From Nitrososphaerota archaeon (GTDB lineage Archaea > Thermoproteota > Nitrososphaeria > Nitrososphaerales > Nitrosopumilaceae), in NCBI GenBank assembly GCA_028867785.1, contig JAGWFS010000005.1, positions 1-64,000 on the forward strand: a DNA stretch of 64,000 nt, in the 5' to 3' direction. This document shows positions 1,904 through 52,404 of the stretch, in pieces (position 1 is the stretch's first letter; each line of letters begins with the position of its first letter). The position numbers were made by a program, and so were the translations under genes. Below the pieces are notes generated by a model. The model ran no database searches, had not been told where the DNA came from, and saw only the letters and a list, made by a program, of their open reading frames with translations.

Positions 1904-2590
1904 TTATTTGGTCGTTTGGGTTCTTTTTGCAAGCCTCTTTTTTCTCCCAATTGCAATTATTATACCTAAAACCAGTGCAGCCACTACGATTCCAATAGAG
2001 GTGTAATCAGATGGAAATGATATGGTATTGCTTACAAATTTAACAGAACCTATAAGCTGGTCATAGTTTGCCAGATTGGCATCGAAGTTTTTCAGGTCGT
2101 TTGCATAAGTTAGTGTATAAAATTTGTCATTTGCAAGCGCAATAGATTGCTTGAATTTTATCGTATTGCTGCCGTCCTGGGAGGTAAAATTTTCCTCAAA
2201 TAATGAAGTTTTTGCGGCAACGCCTCCTGTGGTATCATCCTGTTCCGACAGAAAGACCAGATTAGATTGGCCGTTGGAAAGCTGGCTCTTTTTGTTTTTG
2301 ACATAATCATCAAGCGATGTCCCATTTGCTTTTTCAATACTAAGAGAGATTGAAGCAGTAAATCCGCTTGAATATGGAGCTATTACAGCAACATCAGGAG
2401 CATCGGGCTGGTATTTCTTGGGTTCTGAAACTGTCCATCCTGCCGGGGCTTGAAATGATATGCCAAGCGATGGATTATCATAGTTTCCCTGCGAATCCAG
2501 CGTAGAGTTTTGTTGGGCTGCAGAGGAGGCTGGAACAAAGCCGATTAAAACCGCAAGCATTGAAATTGAGATTATTGCTCTGCTGTACAA
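1904..2590 (-). CDS. Secreted, membrane-anchored PsbP/DcrB-like lipoprotein-type protein
   Basis: A 228-residue exported protein of unknown role. It begins with a signal-peptide-like segment (ISMLAVLIGFVPASSAA, cleavage expected near residue 25) and ends with a single transmembrane helix (residues about 197-218) followed by a positive tail (RKKRLAKR), so the main domain sits outside the cell. The domain starts with the motif NPSLGISFQAPAGWTV, which is typical of PsbP/DcrB-like folds found in many archaeal surface proteins. The start at 2590 is a TTG; an ATG at 2560 would drop the arginine of the signal peptide, so the TTG seems more likely. It is divergent from cbiE. Confidence 0.7.
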   Translation of the reverse strand: MYSRAIISISMLAVLIGFVPASSAAQQNSTLDSQGNYDNPSLGISFQAPAGWTVSEPKKYQPDAPDVAVIAPYSSGFTASISLSIEKANGTSLDDYVKNKKSQLSNGQSNLVFLSEQDDTTGGVAAKTSLFEENFTSQDGSNTIKFKQSIALANDKFYTLTYANDLKNFDANLANYDQLIGSVKFVSNTISFPSDYTSIGIVVAALVLGIIIAIGRKKRLAKRTQTTK

Positions 2591-38480: not shown

Positions 38481-39452
38481 ATGCCGATCAAGACGTTTAA
38501 AGAAGACATTTGCAAAATAAGTAGGATGGAAAACCGCATAGTCTCTTTTCTCCCAAGCGCAACCGAGATACTGTATGAGCTTGGCGCGGGAGACAATGTA
38601 CTTGCAGTTACACACGAATGTAATTATCCTTCAGAGGCAAAAAGCAAACCAAGAGTGATTCATTCCGTATTTGATCCTCAAAGAATGACAAGCCAGGAAA
38701 TTGACAGAAAAGTGGTAGATCTTATGAAGTCAGGCAAGGACATTTACACACTGGACGAACAGGTGCTAAAAGACGCAAATCCAAATCTGATAGTGGCTCA
38801 GGGCATCTGCGAGGTCTGCTCGCCTTTTACCAAAGAGATCAACCGAGCAGTTGCAATACTTGGGGGAAAACCCGAAGTTCTTGTTCTAGACCCAAGGAAC
38901 CTTGATGGCATACTTGACAACATAGCTGAGATTGGAAAAAAGATCGGAAGGATACGAGAGGCAAATGACTTTGTTTCCAAACTAAGGAATAAAATCAAGG
39001 CCGTTCAGCACATTCCAAAGGGTGCACGACCAAAAGTTCTCTGTATAGAGTGGCTTGATCCGCTGTTTACTGCAGGCCACTGGGTTCCACAAATGGTAGA
39101 GATTGCGGGAGGAATCAACGGAATCAGTACAACAGGTGACCAATCAAGAAGAATGGAACTTGATGAGGCAGTAAAACTTGATCCTGATATAATAATACTC
39201 ATGCCATGCGGTTTTGACGTGAAACGAACTCTTCAGGAATATGAGAGGATTGCAGACAGGCCAAAATGGAAATCCATGCGGGCAGTCAAGCAGGGCCAGG
39301 TTTACGCAGTAAATGCAAACGAATACTTTAGCAAGCCAGGACCGAGGACCGTAGTGGGACTTGAGATCCTGGCAAAGATAATCAATCCTGACACGTTTCG
39401 GGATTTACAGATTCCAAAAAACTCTGTCCAGAAAGTAGAATCTGAGTTGTAA
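38481..39452 (+). CDS. Cobalamin-binding (BtuF-like) protein without signal peptide
   Basis: A protein of about 310-323 residues of the COG0614 substrate-binding fold. From residue 16 it reads NRIVSFLPSATEILYELGAG, the usual mature start, with AVTHECNYP, LIVAQGICEVCSPF and EWLDPLFTAGHWVPQMVEIA following, a set typical of cobalamin-binding relatives. Bacterial BtuF carries a signal peptide; here neither this ATG (38481) nor the later ATG at 38526 provides one, so the protein is probably cytosolic. No permease or ATPase gene is adjacent. A TTG at 38466 is also in frame. It is divergent from prs. Confidence 0.82.
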   Translation: MPIKTFKEDICKISRMENRIVSFLPSATEILYELGAGDNVLAVTHECNYPSEAKSKPRVIHSVFDPQRMTSQEIDRKVVDLMKSGKDIYTLDEQVLKDANPNLIVAQGICEVCSPFTKEINRAVAILGGKPEVLVLDPRNLDGILDNIAEIGKKIGRIREANDFVSKLRNKIKAVQHIPKGARPKVLCIEWLDPLFTAGHWVPQMVEIAGGINGISTTGDQSRRMELDEAVKLDPDIIILMPCGFDVKRTLQEYERIADRPKWKSMRAVKQGQVYAVNANEYFSKPGPRTVVGLEILAKIINPDTFRDLQIPKNSVQKVESEL

Positions 39453-39462
39453 AAATGTCCTG

Positions 39463-39492
39463 ACATCCTCATTTGGGTAGGTATGAGGATGT
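39463..39492 (+). terminator. 10-bp hairpin after the BtuF-like gene
   Basis: ACATCCTCAT (39463-39472) and ATGAGGATGT (39483-39492) form a perfect stem with a 10-nt loop, 11 nt past the stop codon. A T-rich stretch (TTGTTTTGTCTTTTATTTATC) follows about 30 nt later. It could be a terminator or mRNA 3' protection element. The rest of the gap to 39680 holds only promoter-like DNA. Confidence 0.5.
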
Positions 39493-45221: not shown

Positions 45222-45860
45222 ATGACAACATTTGCTAATAACTGGCAAAAGCCACAGACACCAAGCGTTGGGGAAAGAATCAACGACGCAATAAGACCGA
45301 AAGGTCCTCTGAAGCCAAGAATGGAACAAGCAGTAAAAAGACTTCAGACTCAAATCGGTAAACTTGATGGAATGATTACAAAATTAAAACAAAGAGATGA
45401 AAAGTTATTCAAAAGAATTGTAGTTGCTACTCAACAGCATGATCTAACTGCCAGCAGAGTCTTATCAAAAGAATTAGCCGAGGTTAGAAAAGTTACCAAG
45501 CTTCTCGGAAATGCTAGAATTGCACTAGAACAAATCGAACTCAGACTTAGCACCTTCCATGATCTGGGAGATACGGTTGTTACAATCATGCCAACAATTG
45601 GCTTGATGAAGAACCTGAGGTCATCACTAGGACAGTTCATGCCAGAAGCAGATCGTGAGCTTGCAGGAATGACTGATATGCTCAGCGGATTGATGACAGA
45701 TACATTCCATAGTGGAGACTTTGGAATCGATTCTGGAGTTACGGACGAGGAATCAGAGAAGATCATCCAAGAAGCTGCAGCAGTTGCAGAGGCGGCAGTC
45801 AACGACAAACTACCGTCCATGCCTGCCAGCGGTCAATCATCTTCTGCCCGCTATATCTAG
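45222..45860 (+). CDS. ESCRT-III family protein (CdvB-like)
   Basis: A 212-residue member of the Snf7/ESCRT-III family, used for membrane constriction in Cdv-type cell division. It has the basic first helices (MEQAVKRLQTQIGKLDGMIT, KLKQRDEKLFKRIVVA), the long alpha1-alpha2 hairpin and the later helices around STFHDLGDTVVTIMPTIGLM and EADRELAGMTDMLSGLMTD. The acidic end (EESEKIIQEAAAVAEAAVND) may bind the MIT domain of CdvC. It lacks the C-terminal winged-helix seen in CdvB proper, so it resembles the shorter paralogues. A TATA-like AAATTAATAA lies about 28 nt before the ATG. It shares CTAG with the convergent MFS gene. Confidence 0.88.
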   Translation: MTTFANNWQKPQTPSVGERINDAIRPKGPLKPRMEQAVKRLQTQIGKLDGMITKLKQRDEKLFKRIVVATQQHDLTASRVLSKELAEVRKVTKLLGNARIALEQIELRLSTFHDLGDTVVTIMPTIGLMKNLRSSLGQFMPEADRELAGMTDMLSGLMTDTFHSGDFGIDSGVTDEESEKIIQEAAAVAEAAVNDKLPSMPASGQSSSARYI

Positions 45861-47128
45861 ACTGTCTTGTGAGATAGCCTGTGGCGAAAATATGCCACAA
45901 ATAAAACCAAGGAAATAACCAATACGGTGGCAGAAGAAAAGAACAGCACGGAATAGCCAAACGCCTTGGTAAACTCTCCTGTTACTAGTGCTCCTGCAAA
46001 AACACCAATTCCAGTCACAGCGCTATTGACTCCCAAGTATTTCCCCTCAAATCCCTGTGGTATACTTTTGAAAAATATGACTGAACTTGCTGTATTAAAA
46101 ATAGAAAACCCGACAACAAGAAGACAAGATGAAATAATCGCCAATATTGCACTAAAACTTCCCATCATTATGGAGATGGCAACACCGGGAATTGCCACGG
46201 CCAAAACTCTGGGCACAAATGCTACTAATGTAGATCGTTCCTCTCCCATCTTGGAAATTATTTTTGGTGCTATAAAGAAAACAGCCAGCATGACAGCTGT
46301 CTGAACCATATAGTTTAGAAAAACACCAGAGTTTGAAAAGTGGCGGCTTATGAGAAAAGGACTCCAAGCCGTTGAATACATGTTGCTTCCCAGATTAAAA
46401 CAAAAGATTGCAATGTAAAAAACTCCAATCTCGTTGCTTATCTTTCCTCTAAATATTGTGATTATGTGCTTGAAATCATAAAGCTCAAGAATCTTGGGAA
46501 AGATAAAGTGATGATGATTTAATGTATACCGCAAACCATGTATGGAATGTGCCACACTGCTTCGTTCAAGATGAAATCTGCCTCCCTTGACCATCATGCT
46601 AAGAGCCATTGCTATCCCGCTTGATGTTGCGCAAATCAGGAAATATGGCCTCAGATCAAAATACAGACTGCTATAGACAGTTCCAATGGCCATGGCAAAC
46701 AGCATTCCAAGAGTGCTTATGACCGATGTTCTTGCAAAAAGCCAACTCCATAGGTTTTTCTGCACTGATTCCATCACAAGAAGCTGGGTCACCGGGTTTC
46801 TTCCAACAATAAAAAATCCAAGTATGGGAGAAATGCAATACAACACTACAATTGATCTAGTAAAACACATGCCAAGGCTGCAAAGAAAAACAACAAAAAA
46901 TGATATCAAAAGTATGTGCCGCCTTGTATGAAATCGGTCAATTATCCTGCCCCAGAAAATAGAGCCTATTGCAACTGCGGCATTTTGGAGAGCAGAGATT
47001 ATTGCAACCTCTCCAATATCCCCTCCTAGGAATATTACATACAAAGGAATTACTATGCTTAAACCTTGGTTGGTAATTTGGCCTGGAAGAATATACCACA
47101 TCCATTTCTGTGATTGCAGAGGCCGCAC
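45857..47128 (-). CDS. Major facilitator superfamily transporter
   Basis: A 423-residue membrane transporter with about 12 hydrophobic spans. The loop between helices 2 and 3 is GRIIDRFHTRRHILL, the MFS signature (G-x-x-x-D-R-x-x-R-R). The middle loop (about 190-225) is long. Substrate cannot be inferred from sequence. The frame opens at a GTG (47128); an ATG at 47101 (MWYILPGQI) is the alternative. The 10-bp inverted repeat at 47163-47191 lies 35 nt and more upstream and could be its operator. Confidence 0.85.
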   Translation of the reverse strand: MRPLQSQKWMWYILPGQITNQGLSIVIPLYVIFLGGDIGEVAIISALQNAAVAIGSIFWGRIIDRFHTRRHILLISFFVVFLCSLGMCFTRSIVVLYCISPILGFFIVGRNPVTQLLVMESVQKNLWSWLFARTSVISTLGMLFAMAIGTVYSSLYFDLRPYFLICATSSGIAMALSMMVKGGRFHLERSSVAHSIHGLRYTLNHHHFIFPKILELYDFKHIITIFRGKISNEIGVFYIAIFCFNLGSNMYSTAWSPFLISRHFSNSGVFLNYMVQTAVMLAVFFIAPKIISKMGEERSTLVAFVPRVLAVAIPGVAISIMMGSFSAILAIISSCLLVVGFSIFNTASSVIFFKSIPQGFEGKYLGVNSAVTGIGVFAGALVTGEFTKAFGYSVLFFSSATVLVISLVLFVAYFRHRLSHKTV

Positions 47129-47162
47129 CCCTTTAGACAGTCATGATGACGCCATTATTGTA

Positions 47163-47191
47163 TAATCTATGTGAATAATTTACATAGATTA
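47163..47191. promoter_or_regulatory. Perfect 10-bp inverted repeat upstream of the MFS gene
   Basis: TAATCTATGT (47163-47172) and ACATAGATTA (47182-47191) flank a 9-nt spacer. It lies between the MFS start codon and the structured segment at 47222-47402, so it could control either direction. No regulator gene is adjacent. Confidence 0.6.
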
Positions 47192-47221
47192 GTCTATTTT
47201 GTTGTAATTGGGAAAAATTCT

Positions 47222-47402
47222 ATCATGCAGACGTGTGTGATCCACACGCCACGTGAGATCGCGCCGCAAAGGCACGATGACCATTGTCACCGTCTCCCCT
47301 TGGGTTTCTCCCGTCGGCGCTTTTACGGAAGGGATTTGGGCCCTAAACCGTTTCACATGTTTGCTGCATGATCTCTGTCTTGGGAGGATATTCCTTTGAC
47401 AG
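47222..47402 (+). ncRNA. Candidate structured noncoding RNA, about 180 nt
   Basis: A GC-richer island inside an A/T-rich gap with nested pairing: outer stem ATCATGCAG (47222-47230) / CTGCATGAT (47364-47372); hairpin CGTGTG-tgatc-CACACG (47232-47248); stem GCGCCG (47261-47266) / CGGCGC (47315-47320); inner hairpin around ATGAC-CATT-GTCAC (47276-47290); hairpin ACGG-a-AGGG...CCCT-aaa-CCGT (47325-47351); and hairpin CTGTC-AGGA-tat-TCCT-GACAG (47375-47402). It matches no RNA I know (not RNase P, SRP or tRNA). Strand is uncertain; a 66-codon frame through it looks like an artefact. Confidence 0.55.
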
Positions 47403-47523
47403 GGACAATTAATACGTGTGCAAATTATTTAAGTATTATGACTTATTTCATATCCGAACTTTTGATTTTTCTATAATAGTTCAAGTTGTTGCATATTAAC
47501 AAAGGATTTTTTGAAAATTATTG

Positions 47524-47898
47524 ATGAAAGCTTTTATGACATGGTTACGTAACGCAACCGTGACAAAAGATACGGACATTTACCAACTAATCTATGAATC
47601 CAACCTAGACAGCAAACTGGAACAAATTCTGATTGGATTGATGAAGGACAACCCGTCCCACAAAACTGAGAAAGTCATTCAAAAGTTTCTGCTCTACATA
47701 CAGCACTCTACAGAGAACTTTTGGACTACATATTACAGCGCAAAAACCTACCAGGAGAAACTGGACTGCTATTACCAGTTCTCAAAGAACCAATGTCTTG
47801 CAACAGAGGTGCTGATCCGAGACCTCGACTCAATGTCATCCGAAGAGGAGATAAAGGAAAACCTAAACAGCATTTTAAAAGAAGGGTTTACCTTTTAA
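47524..47898 (+). CDS. Conserved helical protein, unknown function
   Basis: A 124-residue protein, predicted mainly alpha-helical, with no family I recognise. Segments such as FLLYIQHSTENFWTTYYSAK and YYQFSKNQCLATEVLIRDLD are aromatic-rich amphipathic helices. The start is the ATG at 47524 (a TTG precedes it directly). A TATA-like TATTTAAGTATT near 47427 lies too far up for this gene alone. It overlaps the coiled-coil gene tail to tail by four bases (TTAA). Confidence 0.6.
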   Translation: MKAFMTWLRNATVTKDTDIYQLIYESNLDSKLEQILIGLMKDNPSHKTEKVIQKFLLYIQHSTENFWTTYYSAKTYQEKLDCYYQFSKNQCLATEVLIRDLDSMSSEEEIKENLNSILKEGFTF

Positions 47899-48491
47899 CT
47901 GAAAGAAGCTTCGGGCCTGGGTCTAGAGTCTTTGAACTTTTCTATCTTGTTCCCTTCCTCGTTAACTACTCTATCTATGCCTAATATCTTTTCACGTAAA
48001 TTATTGATAATTGTGGCAACATCATCAGCTTCCTTTTCTACATCGCTTCTTTTTTGCTGCAGTGCCCTTAATCCCTGTTTTTCTTCTTCAATATATTGAC
48101 CCACCTTGACCAATTTTTCCTTGAGATTCTTGATATCGACAGACTCATCCTCTATGCTCTTTTCTAAGTTGGTTCTCTTGTCCTTCAAATTCTTAATCAT
48201 CAGGCCTACATAGTCAATTGCTTCTTCGAGCTTGGTTCTCTTGTCCATGAGTGCCCTGATTCCTATGTCTTCTCCGCTGCTCACTGTCCTTTGTTGCATA
48301 GGTTCCGGTATTTTTACTTGTTCCGTAGGCCTAGGTTGCTCAGCTTTGGCAGGTTCCAGCCTTGACTGTTCAATAACCTCGCCAGTTTCCTCTATTTCTG
48401 GTGGTTGATATTGCGCGGTAGTTGTAATGTCTTCTTTTTTAGTGGAATCTGGCTCAAAATCGTCCTTTTTCTTTCGAAATTTTTCAAACAT
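47895..48491 (-). CDS. Coiled-coil protein
   Basis: A 198-residue cytosolic protein with a basic start (MFEKFRKKKDD), a Pro/Glu/Gln-rich disordered linker (about 15-75), and a long heptad-like coiled coil (about 80-190: RALMDKRTKLEEAIDYVGLM, IKNLKDKRTNLEKSIEDESV and on). The alternating K-R-T/S-x-L-E-K blocks recur three times with about 37-residue spacing. A structural or scaffold role is likely, but the partner is unknown. The promoter (minus) probably includes TTATATATTATG at about 48512-48522. Confidence 0.7.
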   Translation of the reverse strand: MFEKFRKKKDDFEPDSTKKEDITTTAQYQPPEIEETGEVIEQSRLEPAKAEQPRPTEQVKIPEPMQQRTVSSGEDIGIRALMDKRTKLEEAIDYVGLMIKNLKDKRTNLEKSIEDESVDIKNLKEKLVKVGQYIEEEKQGLRALQQKRSDVEKEADDVATIINNLREKILGIDRVVNEEGNKIEKFKDSRPRPEASFS

Positions 48492-49894: not shown

Positions 49895-51088
49895 ATGTAC
49901 CGGAAAACCCTAGTGATCCAAGCAGAAGTGCAAGCAGAAGCAATGCTTTTTGTAAGGATTACCTATATCTTGACAATAATGCTAAAGGCTCCGATAATTG
50001 CTACCTGCCTTTTTCTACTTGCTTTTTCCTCTTGTATACAGTATGCACTAAGCTCATCCAAAGTACTCGAGTTTACCATTTATGCCGATGGTACCACTCA
50101 TGTCTTCTATCAAACTGATGTTGATCCGCAATCTCCAGATGCTGTTCTTGATCTGTATGGCAATACTACTGACAACCTTGTCATACGGGACCAGAATGGA
50201 ACGTTGCTTTCAAGCAAAATGAGTGCAAATGGCGTAGACGTTGAGACTCTCGGTGCCTCTACAGTTAAGGTAGATTATGATACTCCAGATCTTGTATCCA
50301 AAAGTGGAAAGACATGGACATTTCACGTAAATTCTCCTGTTGATTATTCTGTACTCTTGCCTGCAAATACTGTAATGGTGGGCATGAGTGCAACCCCGCT
50401 AAACTTGCAGGTTGTAAACGATCAATCCCTGATTTCATTCCCTAGTGGATCTGCAGATGTCAATTACATATTTGGCATATTGGGAACAAGCCAGACGGCA
50501 ACCCGTGCAATTCAGAGTGCTCGTGATTTTATAAACACAGTAAATTCTGAGAACATAAAGACACCACTTGCTTCCCAAAAACTTGATGATGCAAATACGG
50601 CCTTTAACCAAGGGAGGTATTCTGATTCTGAGGAGCTGGCAAATGACGCTAAAAACTTGGCTGTACAGGAACAACAAGCGGCTCTTTCCATTCCGAAATC
50701 TTCTGGAGACTATGGCACGACTCTAATTTTGGTTGCAGGCGGAGCAGCCGCTGCAGGAACTACTGTATTCATTATACTGAGAAGAAATAGAACCGCAAAG
50801 GAGATGCCAATACCCCAAATCCCAAGTAGCAATTATGTACCGCCAGACAAAGAAACAATCTTTAGACTAAAACCAGAACTGCGCCAGGACGACAAGGACA
50901 TTGTTGCATTCATCTCTGAAAAGGGAGGGCGAGTTTTTGAAAGTGAACTTCGCAAGAAATTTCTTTTACCACGCACTACAATGTGGCGGGCAGTAAAACG
51001 GCTAGAAAGAGGGGGGGTTGTTGAAATAGAAAAGGTGGATCAACAAAACCTCATAAAACTACAAAAAGTTGAGGAGAATCCACAATGA
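49895..51088 (+). CDS. Membrane-anchored sensor with cytoplasmic winged helix
   Basis: A protein of up to 397 residues that spans the membrane. A signal-like helix (IIATCLFLLAFSSCIQYALS) leads to an external beta-rich domain (about 55-225) and a helical stalk; a second transmembrane helix (TLILVAGGAAAAGTTVFIIL, about 276-295) precedes a cytosolic winged helix (about 330-395: KDIVAFISEKGGRVFESELR, FLLPRTTMWRAVKRLERGG). It probably couples an outside signal to transcription in one polypeptide. The ATG at 49979 (MLKAPIIATC) is the alternative start. Its stop overlaps the ATG of the Pro-repeat protein (ATGA). Confidence 0.8.
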   Translation: MYRKTLVIQAEVQAEAMLFVRITYILTIMLKAPIIATCLFLLAFSSCIQYALSSSKVLEFTIYADGTTHVFYQTDVDPQSPDAVLDLYGNTTDNLVIRDQNGTLLSSKMSANGVDVETLGASTVKVDYDTPDLVSKSGKTWTFHVNSPVDYSVLLPANTVMVGMSATPLNLQVVNDQSLISFPSGSADVNYIFGILGTSQTATRAIQSARDFINTVNSENIKTPLASQKLDDANTAFNQGRYSDSEELANDAKNLAVQEQQAALSIPKSSGDYGTTLILVAGGAAAAGTTVFIILRRNRTAKEMPIPQIPSSNYVPPDKETIFRLKPELRQDDKDIVAFISEKGGRVFESELRKKFLLPRTTMWRAVKRLERGGVVEIEKVDQQNLIKLQKVEENPQ

Positions 51089-52404
51089 AAGTGTCATCGA
51101 TATTCCTTCTGGTATTGCTGGCTGGAACAATAATCTCTGGCATTCCCGTGAAATCTTATGCTGATCCACAGCTAGATACTCTGCTCAATATAGCGACTCA
51201 GGCCAGAAACAGCCTTGGCATCACAATATCCCAAATCAATAATATGCCTGCTCAGATTAACCAGCTTTACAAACAAGGTTCCGATGAAACTGATGAACTG
51301 GCACAGGCAGTGACCCAACAAGACGTTGATTCTGCCAAGCAACACTTCCTTGCCGCCATGAAATATTTCAAGGAAACAAATGATCAGATAAATTCACTTA
51401 ATGCAACAGCACCAAATGACCAACAAAAAACTGAGATGATACAGCTAAGGAGTGAAATAATCAGACTAGAAAACATGGGGAAGCTACTCAAAACTATTGC
51501 ATTACACAATGATGTGGATATCAATTTTACAAGCTTTGATGGAATGCTTCAAAATGCAACACAGGATCTCAGCTCAGGAAACCTCGATGATGCATCAACA
51601 CAAATTCAGAATGCCAATGACTTTGTTGTTACTACCCATAATTCTCTTACCAAAGTTGCACAAGAAAGAATTACTGAAAAGGAAAAAGAGTTTACAGAAA
51701 AACAAATTGCACAGCTAAACATCGCTCAGGCAAATACTACAGTAAATACCACTAGTCAATCTAACGCTGGATTCAATGCTACCCGTCAATCTAATGCGAT
51801 TCAAACTACACTGCCTGTGAATTCGTCTTATGTTGCACCGGTTGCAAACAACTCTAAAATTGCTATAGAGCATAATCCAAAAGATATGGTTGCAGAGCTC
51901 AAGAGGTTGGTAGCAGAAGGTAAAGTTGATCAAGCAATAAATCTGATTAAGATAATTCAAGCCTATCAAAAATTACAGTCAATTGAAAAAGCAACAGCAA
52001 TATCCTCGACTACAAACACAACCTCTACTCCTCCTGTAAACAACACCGTACCAACGCCGCCATCTCCACCACCAGCTCCTCCTGTAAACAACACCGTACC
52101 AACGCCGCCATCTCCACCACCAGCTCCTCCTGTAAACAACACCGTACCAACGCCGCCATCTCCACCACCAGCTCCGCCTGTAAACAACACCGTACCAACG
52201 CCGCCATCTCCACCACCAGCTCCTCCTGTAAACAACACCGTACCAACGCCGCCATCTCCACCTGAAAACACAACAATGTCTACATCACAGTTCACAACAC
52301 AAGAAAATCATACTATATCAGATCAAAGTATGGGACATAACGAACATCTAAAAAAACACGATGAGAATACAAAGCCAGAAAAAAGACACCACCATCAAAA
52401 CTGA
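51085..52404 (+). CDS. Secreted protein with helical domain, Pro-rich repeats and His-rich tail
   Basis: A 439-residue exported protein. A signal peptide (IFLLVLLAGTIISGIPVKSY) is followed by a helical region (about 30-215) rich in Q, N and D, an Asn/Thr linker, a helix (HNPKDMVAELKRLVAEGKVD) and then tandem repeats of PPVNNTVPTPPSPPPA (four full and one partial copy, 52030-52263) with potential N-glycosylation sites (N-N-T). The end is histidine-rich (HNEHLKKHDE, RHHHQN). It probably sits at the cell surface. It is translationally coupled to the membrane sensor upstream, so the two may form a signalling pair. Confidence 0.8.
   Translation: MKVSSIFLLVLLAGTIISGIPVKSYADPQLDTLLNIATQARNSLGITISQINNMPAQINQLYKQGSDETDELAQAVTQQDVDSAKQHFLAAMKYFKETNDQINSLNATAPNDQQKTEMIQLRSEIIRLENMGKLLKTIALHNDVDINFTSFDGMLQNATQDLSSGNLDDASTQIQNANDFVVTTHNSLTKVAQERITEKEKEFTEKQIAQLNIAQANTTVNTTSQSNAGFNATRQSNAIQTTLPVNSSYVAPVANNSKIAIEHNPKDMVAELKRLVAEGKVDQAINLIKIIQAYQKLQSIEKATAISSTTNTTSTPPVNNTVPTPPSPPPAPPVNNTVPTPPSPPPAPPVNNTVPTPPSPPPAPPVNNTVPTPPSPPPAPPVNNTVPTPPSPPENTTMSTSQFTTQENHTISDQSMGHNEHLKKHDENTKPEKRHHHQN
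52030..52263 (+). repeat. 48-bp tandem repeat within the Pro-rich protein gene
   Basis: Units start at 52030, 52078, 52126, 52174 and 52222 (the last partial). They are almost identical; one visible change is GCTCCG for GCTCCT at about 52171-52176. Such near-perfect repeats change number easily by slippage. Confidence 0.9.

Follow-up and report, generated by a model that had tools for sequence, protein, structure and literature searches.

The window, the whole stretch of 64,000 nucleotides that was analysed, comes from the genus Candidatus Nitrosotalea, ammonia-oxidising archaea of acid soils. A GC-rich island at 47222-47402 occupies the gap between a gene for an MFS transporter (Pfam MFS_1; 45857-47128, minus strand) and a divergently oriented gene on the plus strand, here called fam2 (47563-47898). 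In 100-base windows the GC content reaches 50-59% over 47200-47400 compared to 26-36% on either side. The first-pass annotation had noticed a GC-rich folded segment in an A/T-rich gap, which is confirmed by these values and by the comparison with dinucleotide shuffles (z of -4.1 for the plus and -4.6 for the minus strand, with 0 of 200 shuffles folding as well). The pairings quoted at that stage could all be located, namely an outer 9-bp helix of ATCATGCAG (47364-47372) with CTGCATGAT (47222-47230), a CGTGTG/CACACG pairing within 47231-47249, and GCGCCG (47315-47320) with CGGCGC (47261-47266). The gap had been described as lying downstream of the MFS gene; the element is situated instead upstream of this gene and on the same strand. 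The usual gene order in genomes carrying it is CdvB, MFS, RNA, fam2 and fam3; other Nitrosopumilaceae have CdvB and fam3 immediately next to each other. In the window (45222-48491), the MFS gene, the RNA and fam2 have the appearance of an insertion between the convergent CdvB (Snf7) and coiled-coil genes, and four Nitrosotalea genomes have lost the MFS gene again. Further along, 51085-52404 encodes a secreted-looking protein with the tandem proline-rich repeat PPVNNTVPTPPSPPPA.

The consensus fold, read on the minus strand, opens with the 5' hairpin P1, after which helix P2 closes the body of the structure. Within this body, P3 encloses a multi-branch domain made up of P5, P6 with P6a and P6b, and P7, and P4 forms a side hairpin. 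P1 (47375-47402) carries the near-invariant loop AAAGGA-N-AUCCUCCC-AA and shows two-sided changes at 4 of its 6 outer pairs, for example A-U in 23 and G-C in 14 sequences. The body is closed by P2, the outer 9-bp helix, in which 97.5% of the cells are paired. P3 is formed by CATGTGA (47353-47359) and TCACGTG (47250-47256) with two-sided changes at 7/7 pairs among 41 sequences, and P5 (47325-47351) has such changes at 8/9 pairs. Within the P6/P6a/P7 region (47261-47320), the P6b hairpin (47274-47293) ends in UGACAAWGGUCA, where both the GAC/GUC pairs at the apex and the CAAWGG loop are almost invariant while the base of the stem covaries; this tip and P1 with its loop are the least variable regions of the RNA. 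P4 (GCGTGTG..CACACGT, 47231-47249) is seen in the alignment of the 41 sequences. Conservation in relatives extends to two of the helices proposed initially, the outer 9-bp helix and the CGTGTG pairing, whereas GCGCCG/CGGCGC partly takes the place of P6/P6a/P7 in this species only. Relatives form AAG../..CTT and a separate hairpin at this site and, judged from the alignments, the GCGCCG/CGGCGC helix is a local variant specific to this species. An alternative helix between the 5' strand of P3 and the 3' strand of P4 was rejected, as it suits only some sequences (72% of cells).

The search for covariation in relatives, which had been proposed as a check, was strongly positive. In an alignment of 28 Nitrosotalea sequences made with MAFFT independently of the model, 91% of the cells pair, and two-sided change was found at 25 pairs compared to a shuffled mean of 12.8; the corresponding 103 two-sided cells (35.9 after shuffling) were reached in none of 500 shuffles. 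With 41 sequences from five genera, the paired cells amount to 92%, two-sided change is seen at 45 of 62 pairs (23.6 when shuffled) and 213 two-sided cells were counted (shuffled mean 64.9), although these counts lean towards the structure because this alignment was fitted to the covariance model. Controls with slid partners, which keep the relatedness of the 41 sequences, gave 8-19 pairs and at most 34 cells. A structure conserved by compensatory change, as expected for a stand-alone ncRNA gene, is therefore present.

The strand of the RNA was initially uncertain due to mixed G-U evidence and could be settled as minus by signals at both ends. In minus-strand reading, TTAAATA precedes the first conserved base by about 25 nt in 41/41 homologues with near-identical spacing; here, it is part of the TATA box TTAAATAATTT (47422-47432). 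The distance between TATA box and RNA corresponds to archaeal promoter spacing. The TATA box is followed by an ACGTA-type element and then A/T-rich sequence in all homologues except the one in genome G291, represented here by the near-invariant ACGTATTAAT (47408-47417, minus), in which the final bases of the consensus vary. At the other end, a tract of 4-5 U ends the closing helix in 41/41 homologues (UUUUU at 47217-47213), a likely terminator. Termination at U-tracts by aCPSF1 has been described, including a thaumarchaeal orthologue (PMC8716108). An own promoter and terminator, the second property expected of a stand-alone ncRNA gene, are thus found as sequence signals in all 41 homologues, and the minus-strand TATA spacing together with the U-tract places the RNA from about 47407 to 47213. 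This unit of approximately 195 nt takes in the 5' hairpin and the 3' U-tract, and is matched by the covariance model with an E of 7e-55 (G000:C283:47213-47407:-). The pattern TTAAATAN{3,9}YACGTANTA was found once in the whole genome of this organism; nevertheless, the promoter motif was rejected as a signature of this RNA alone, because in genus g27 it precedes an apparently protein-coding ORF. In these genomes (L165-L173), the conserved promoter TTAAATAGAAAAATCACGTATTGATA stands ahead of an apparently leaderless protein gene, which suggests that ACGTA downstream of the TATA box is a general core-promoter element in the family.

Use of the fold described above by the plus strand, be it as an antisense transcript or with both strands transcribed, is very improbable. 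The plus-strand complement also folds well, the antisense being even slightly more stable (mean folding energy -69.5 compared to -64.9 kcal/mol on the proposed strand), and the G-U evidence was mixed at first sight. Among the homologues, 125 G-U cells compared to 58 A-C cells were counted on the minus strand, a ratio that leans on a structure derived from that same strand. Since the folding energy alone leans to the antisense, the strand assignment rests mainly on promoter and terminator. Both are kept on the minus strand in all 41 homologues, even in the displaced copy of G291 with its different neighbours, which retains the U-tract and a TATA box at near-identical distance, while no comparable signals were seen on the plus strand when the alignment was judged by eye. 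A use of the element at the DNA level appears the least probable of all explanations, whether as a site for replication or segregation, a cluster of protein-binding palindromes, or a miniature transposon bounded by inverted ends. The perfect 9-bp inverted ends and the position beside CdvB, an ESCRT-III-like cell-division gene, would agree with such a role. However, it occurs as a single copy per genome, its base pairs show compensatory changes as the sequence diverges, the internal hairpins as well as the promoter and terminator signals are also conserved, and in G291 it is located away from CdvB.

The RNA could also be a cis-acting 5' leader of the MFS gene, a riboswitch or attenuator that senses a ligand and uses the U-tract as conditional terminator. 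Orphan transporters are typical riboswitch-controlled genes, the RNA is found directly upstream and on the same strand in most species, and the U-tract comes after the closing helix. Despite these features this reading is improbable, though less so than the two just discussed, because the consistent place upstream of one gene class that is expected from a riboswitch or mRNA leader was not observed. Four Nitrosotalea genomes (L097-L100) harbor the intact RNA without the MFS gene, and only the convergent CdvB gene lies behind it. In G291 (L093, 909-1103), the RNA was found at an unrelated locus between an RtcA-like gene (RNA 3'-phosphate cyclase) and a gene for a small membrane protein, with neither MFS nor fam2 alongside. 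Moreover, in most species the U-tract is followed by a conserved AT-rich block (TTATACAATAAT) of the MFS gene's own. The MFS-less genomes and the copy at an unrelated locus hence indicate that the RNA is a gene of its own, and the MFS gene is a downstream neighbor outside the RNA unit.

The RNA usually stays beside the divergent gene fam2, and some local role is therefore possible. The fam2 protein of about 110 amino acids contains the conserved CYYQFSKNQC and is an orphan, as no Pfam match and no sequence relative in the PDB were found. Its AlphaFold model is all-helical (pLDDT 84), and a fold search yielded no significant structural relative. The ORF called mechanically from 47521 (to 47898) probably starts too early: the homologues align from about residue 15, several of them have stop codons upstream of this position, and a GTG near 47560-47563 is likely the real start, with conservation in 19 homologues from about 47563 onwards. 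The gene occurs also in genera without the RNA, hence both are linked, not inseparable; the regions upstream of distant fam2 homologues in genera g22 and g24 revealed no RNA. In genus g26, a different folded, RNA-like segment precedes fam2 directly and on the same strand (L156 at about 2178-2340, plus strand, in G087, and likewise L188 in G403). It has nearly the same promoter (CCTTAAATATCATTTTCACGTAATTATA), a closing helix GACGAGGA/TCCTCGTC and a P1-like hairpin CTCTATC..TTCCTCC..GATAGAG. The model score of 12 bits (E 0.005 in 66 kb) is within the range of chance matches, for which reason this segment is regarded as a lead rather than a claimed homologue; it is possibly a rearranged or structural relative.

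Regarding its distribution, a DNA search over 61 related genomes detected the element in most of those from the same genus. Searches with the covariance models R1 and R2 gave a single strong match in each of 33 out of 37 Nitrosotalea genomes; in the remaining four the whole locus is lacking or truncated. The RNA is also present in genera g25, g42 and g41 (E 1e-32 to 1e-45) and in g38 (E 1e-13 with R1, 1e-20 with R2), hence in 5 of 22 genera of the family, a narrow range, and was not found with either model in the other 17. Outside the family, only chance-level matches appeared in the order and class samples, and weak secondary matches were judged by eye to be chance-like and to consist mostly of coding-like sequence. 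The cultured N. devanaterra (G035) carries the RNA at 39292-39481 of its chromosome on the minus strand. Seven unnamed small RNA genes have been reported for this organism (PMC4836417), which could include the present RNA, and our literature search found no description of it. A viral origin was dismissed, as the 5' motif occurs in no IMG/VR contig.

The initial impression that the segment belongs to no recognisable RNA class was borne out by the scan against Rfam 15 suggested at that time, which gave no match at curated cut-offs or relaxed E-values, and six homologues also produced only chance-level scores. The archaeal RNase P RNA (RF00373) and SRP RNA (RF01857), with model lengths of 288 and 317, are likewise single-copy, highly structured, stand-alone RNAs and roughly comparable in size. 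However, the present RNA matches neither covariance model, and clear copies of both exist elsewhere in the genome (G000:C111:321530-321808 and G000:C294:50360-50672, respectively). A C/D or H/ACA guide sRNA, which would be short and carry C and D boxes or an ACA box and a kink-turn, was rejected, because there is no Rfam match and the fold is multi-branched with 171-223 nt; inspection by eye revealed UGAUGA in some members and no paired CUGA box. Protein-coding potential was also considered. The homologue lengths of 171-223 show no restriction to multiples of three, no ORF is conserved on either strand with stops occurring in all frames across the homologues, and a 66-aa ORF on the plus strand (47171-47371) is not conserved in them. 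Orphan trans-acting structured RNAs detected through comparative genomics, among them the 104 candidates in Weinberg et al. 2010 (PMC2864571), resemble the present case, being lineage-limited, supported by covariation, organized as own transcription units and orphan in function. None of these families, as held in Rfam, matches the present RNA, which stems from ammonia-oxidising archaea.

Collectively, our data support a stand-alone gene for a structured ncRNA on the minus strand, to which we assign a probability of roughly 85%. The early suggestion of an uncatalogued ncRNA is thereby strengthened by covariation, the negative Rfam result and the promoter and terminator signals. The RNA, which has strong support from comparative sequence analysis, makes up a new family within a known kind, the lineage-specific, stand-alone structured RNAs. 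We propose that transcription would proceed on the minus strand from the TATA promoter at 47422-47432 and end at the U-tract at 47217-47213. The transcript would then fold into P1, followed by the P2-closed body with its multi-branch domain (P3, P5, P6a/b and P7) and the side hairpin P4. It would most likely act in trans within a protein complex, a mechanism to which we give about even odds. Two near-invariant surfaces could be used for this purpose, and proteins would most likely bind there: the internal loop of P1 (AAAGGA-AUCCUCCC-AA) and the hairpin tip UGACAAWGGUCA. More tentatively, the RNA might represent a new archaeal ncRNA class with a function unlike that of any described RNA family, assembled into an RNP of its own in ammonia oxidisers of the Nitrosotalea type. 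An analogy for the present RNA is offered by those regulatory sRNAs of archaea that have C-rich seed loops. As in these sRNAs, the conserved AUCCUCCC in the 5' hairpin loop could pair with ribosome-binding sites of the GGAGG type, which we regard as rather unlikely; in contrast to them, AUCCUCCC is here partly paired with the conserved GGA of the same loop.

Ammonia-oxidising archaea are plentiful in soils and oceans, and the ncRNAs described from them are few. The present work adds a strongly supported, uncatalogued RNA family that almost all Nitrosotalea genomes carry, the cultured N. devanaterra among them. The expression, partner proteins and role of this RNA are therefore directly testable. 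A covariance model is now at hand, with which annotation pipelines could find this RNA.
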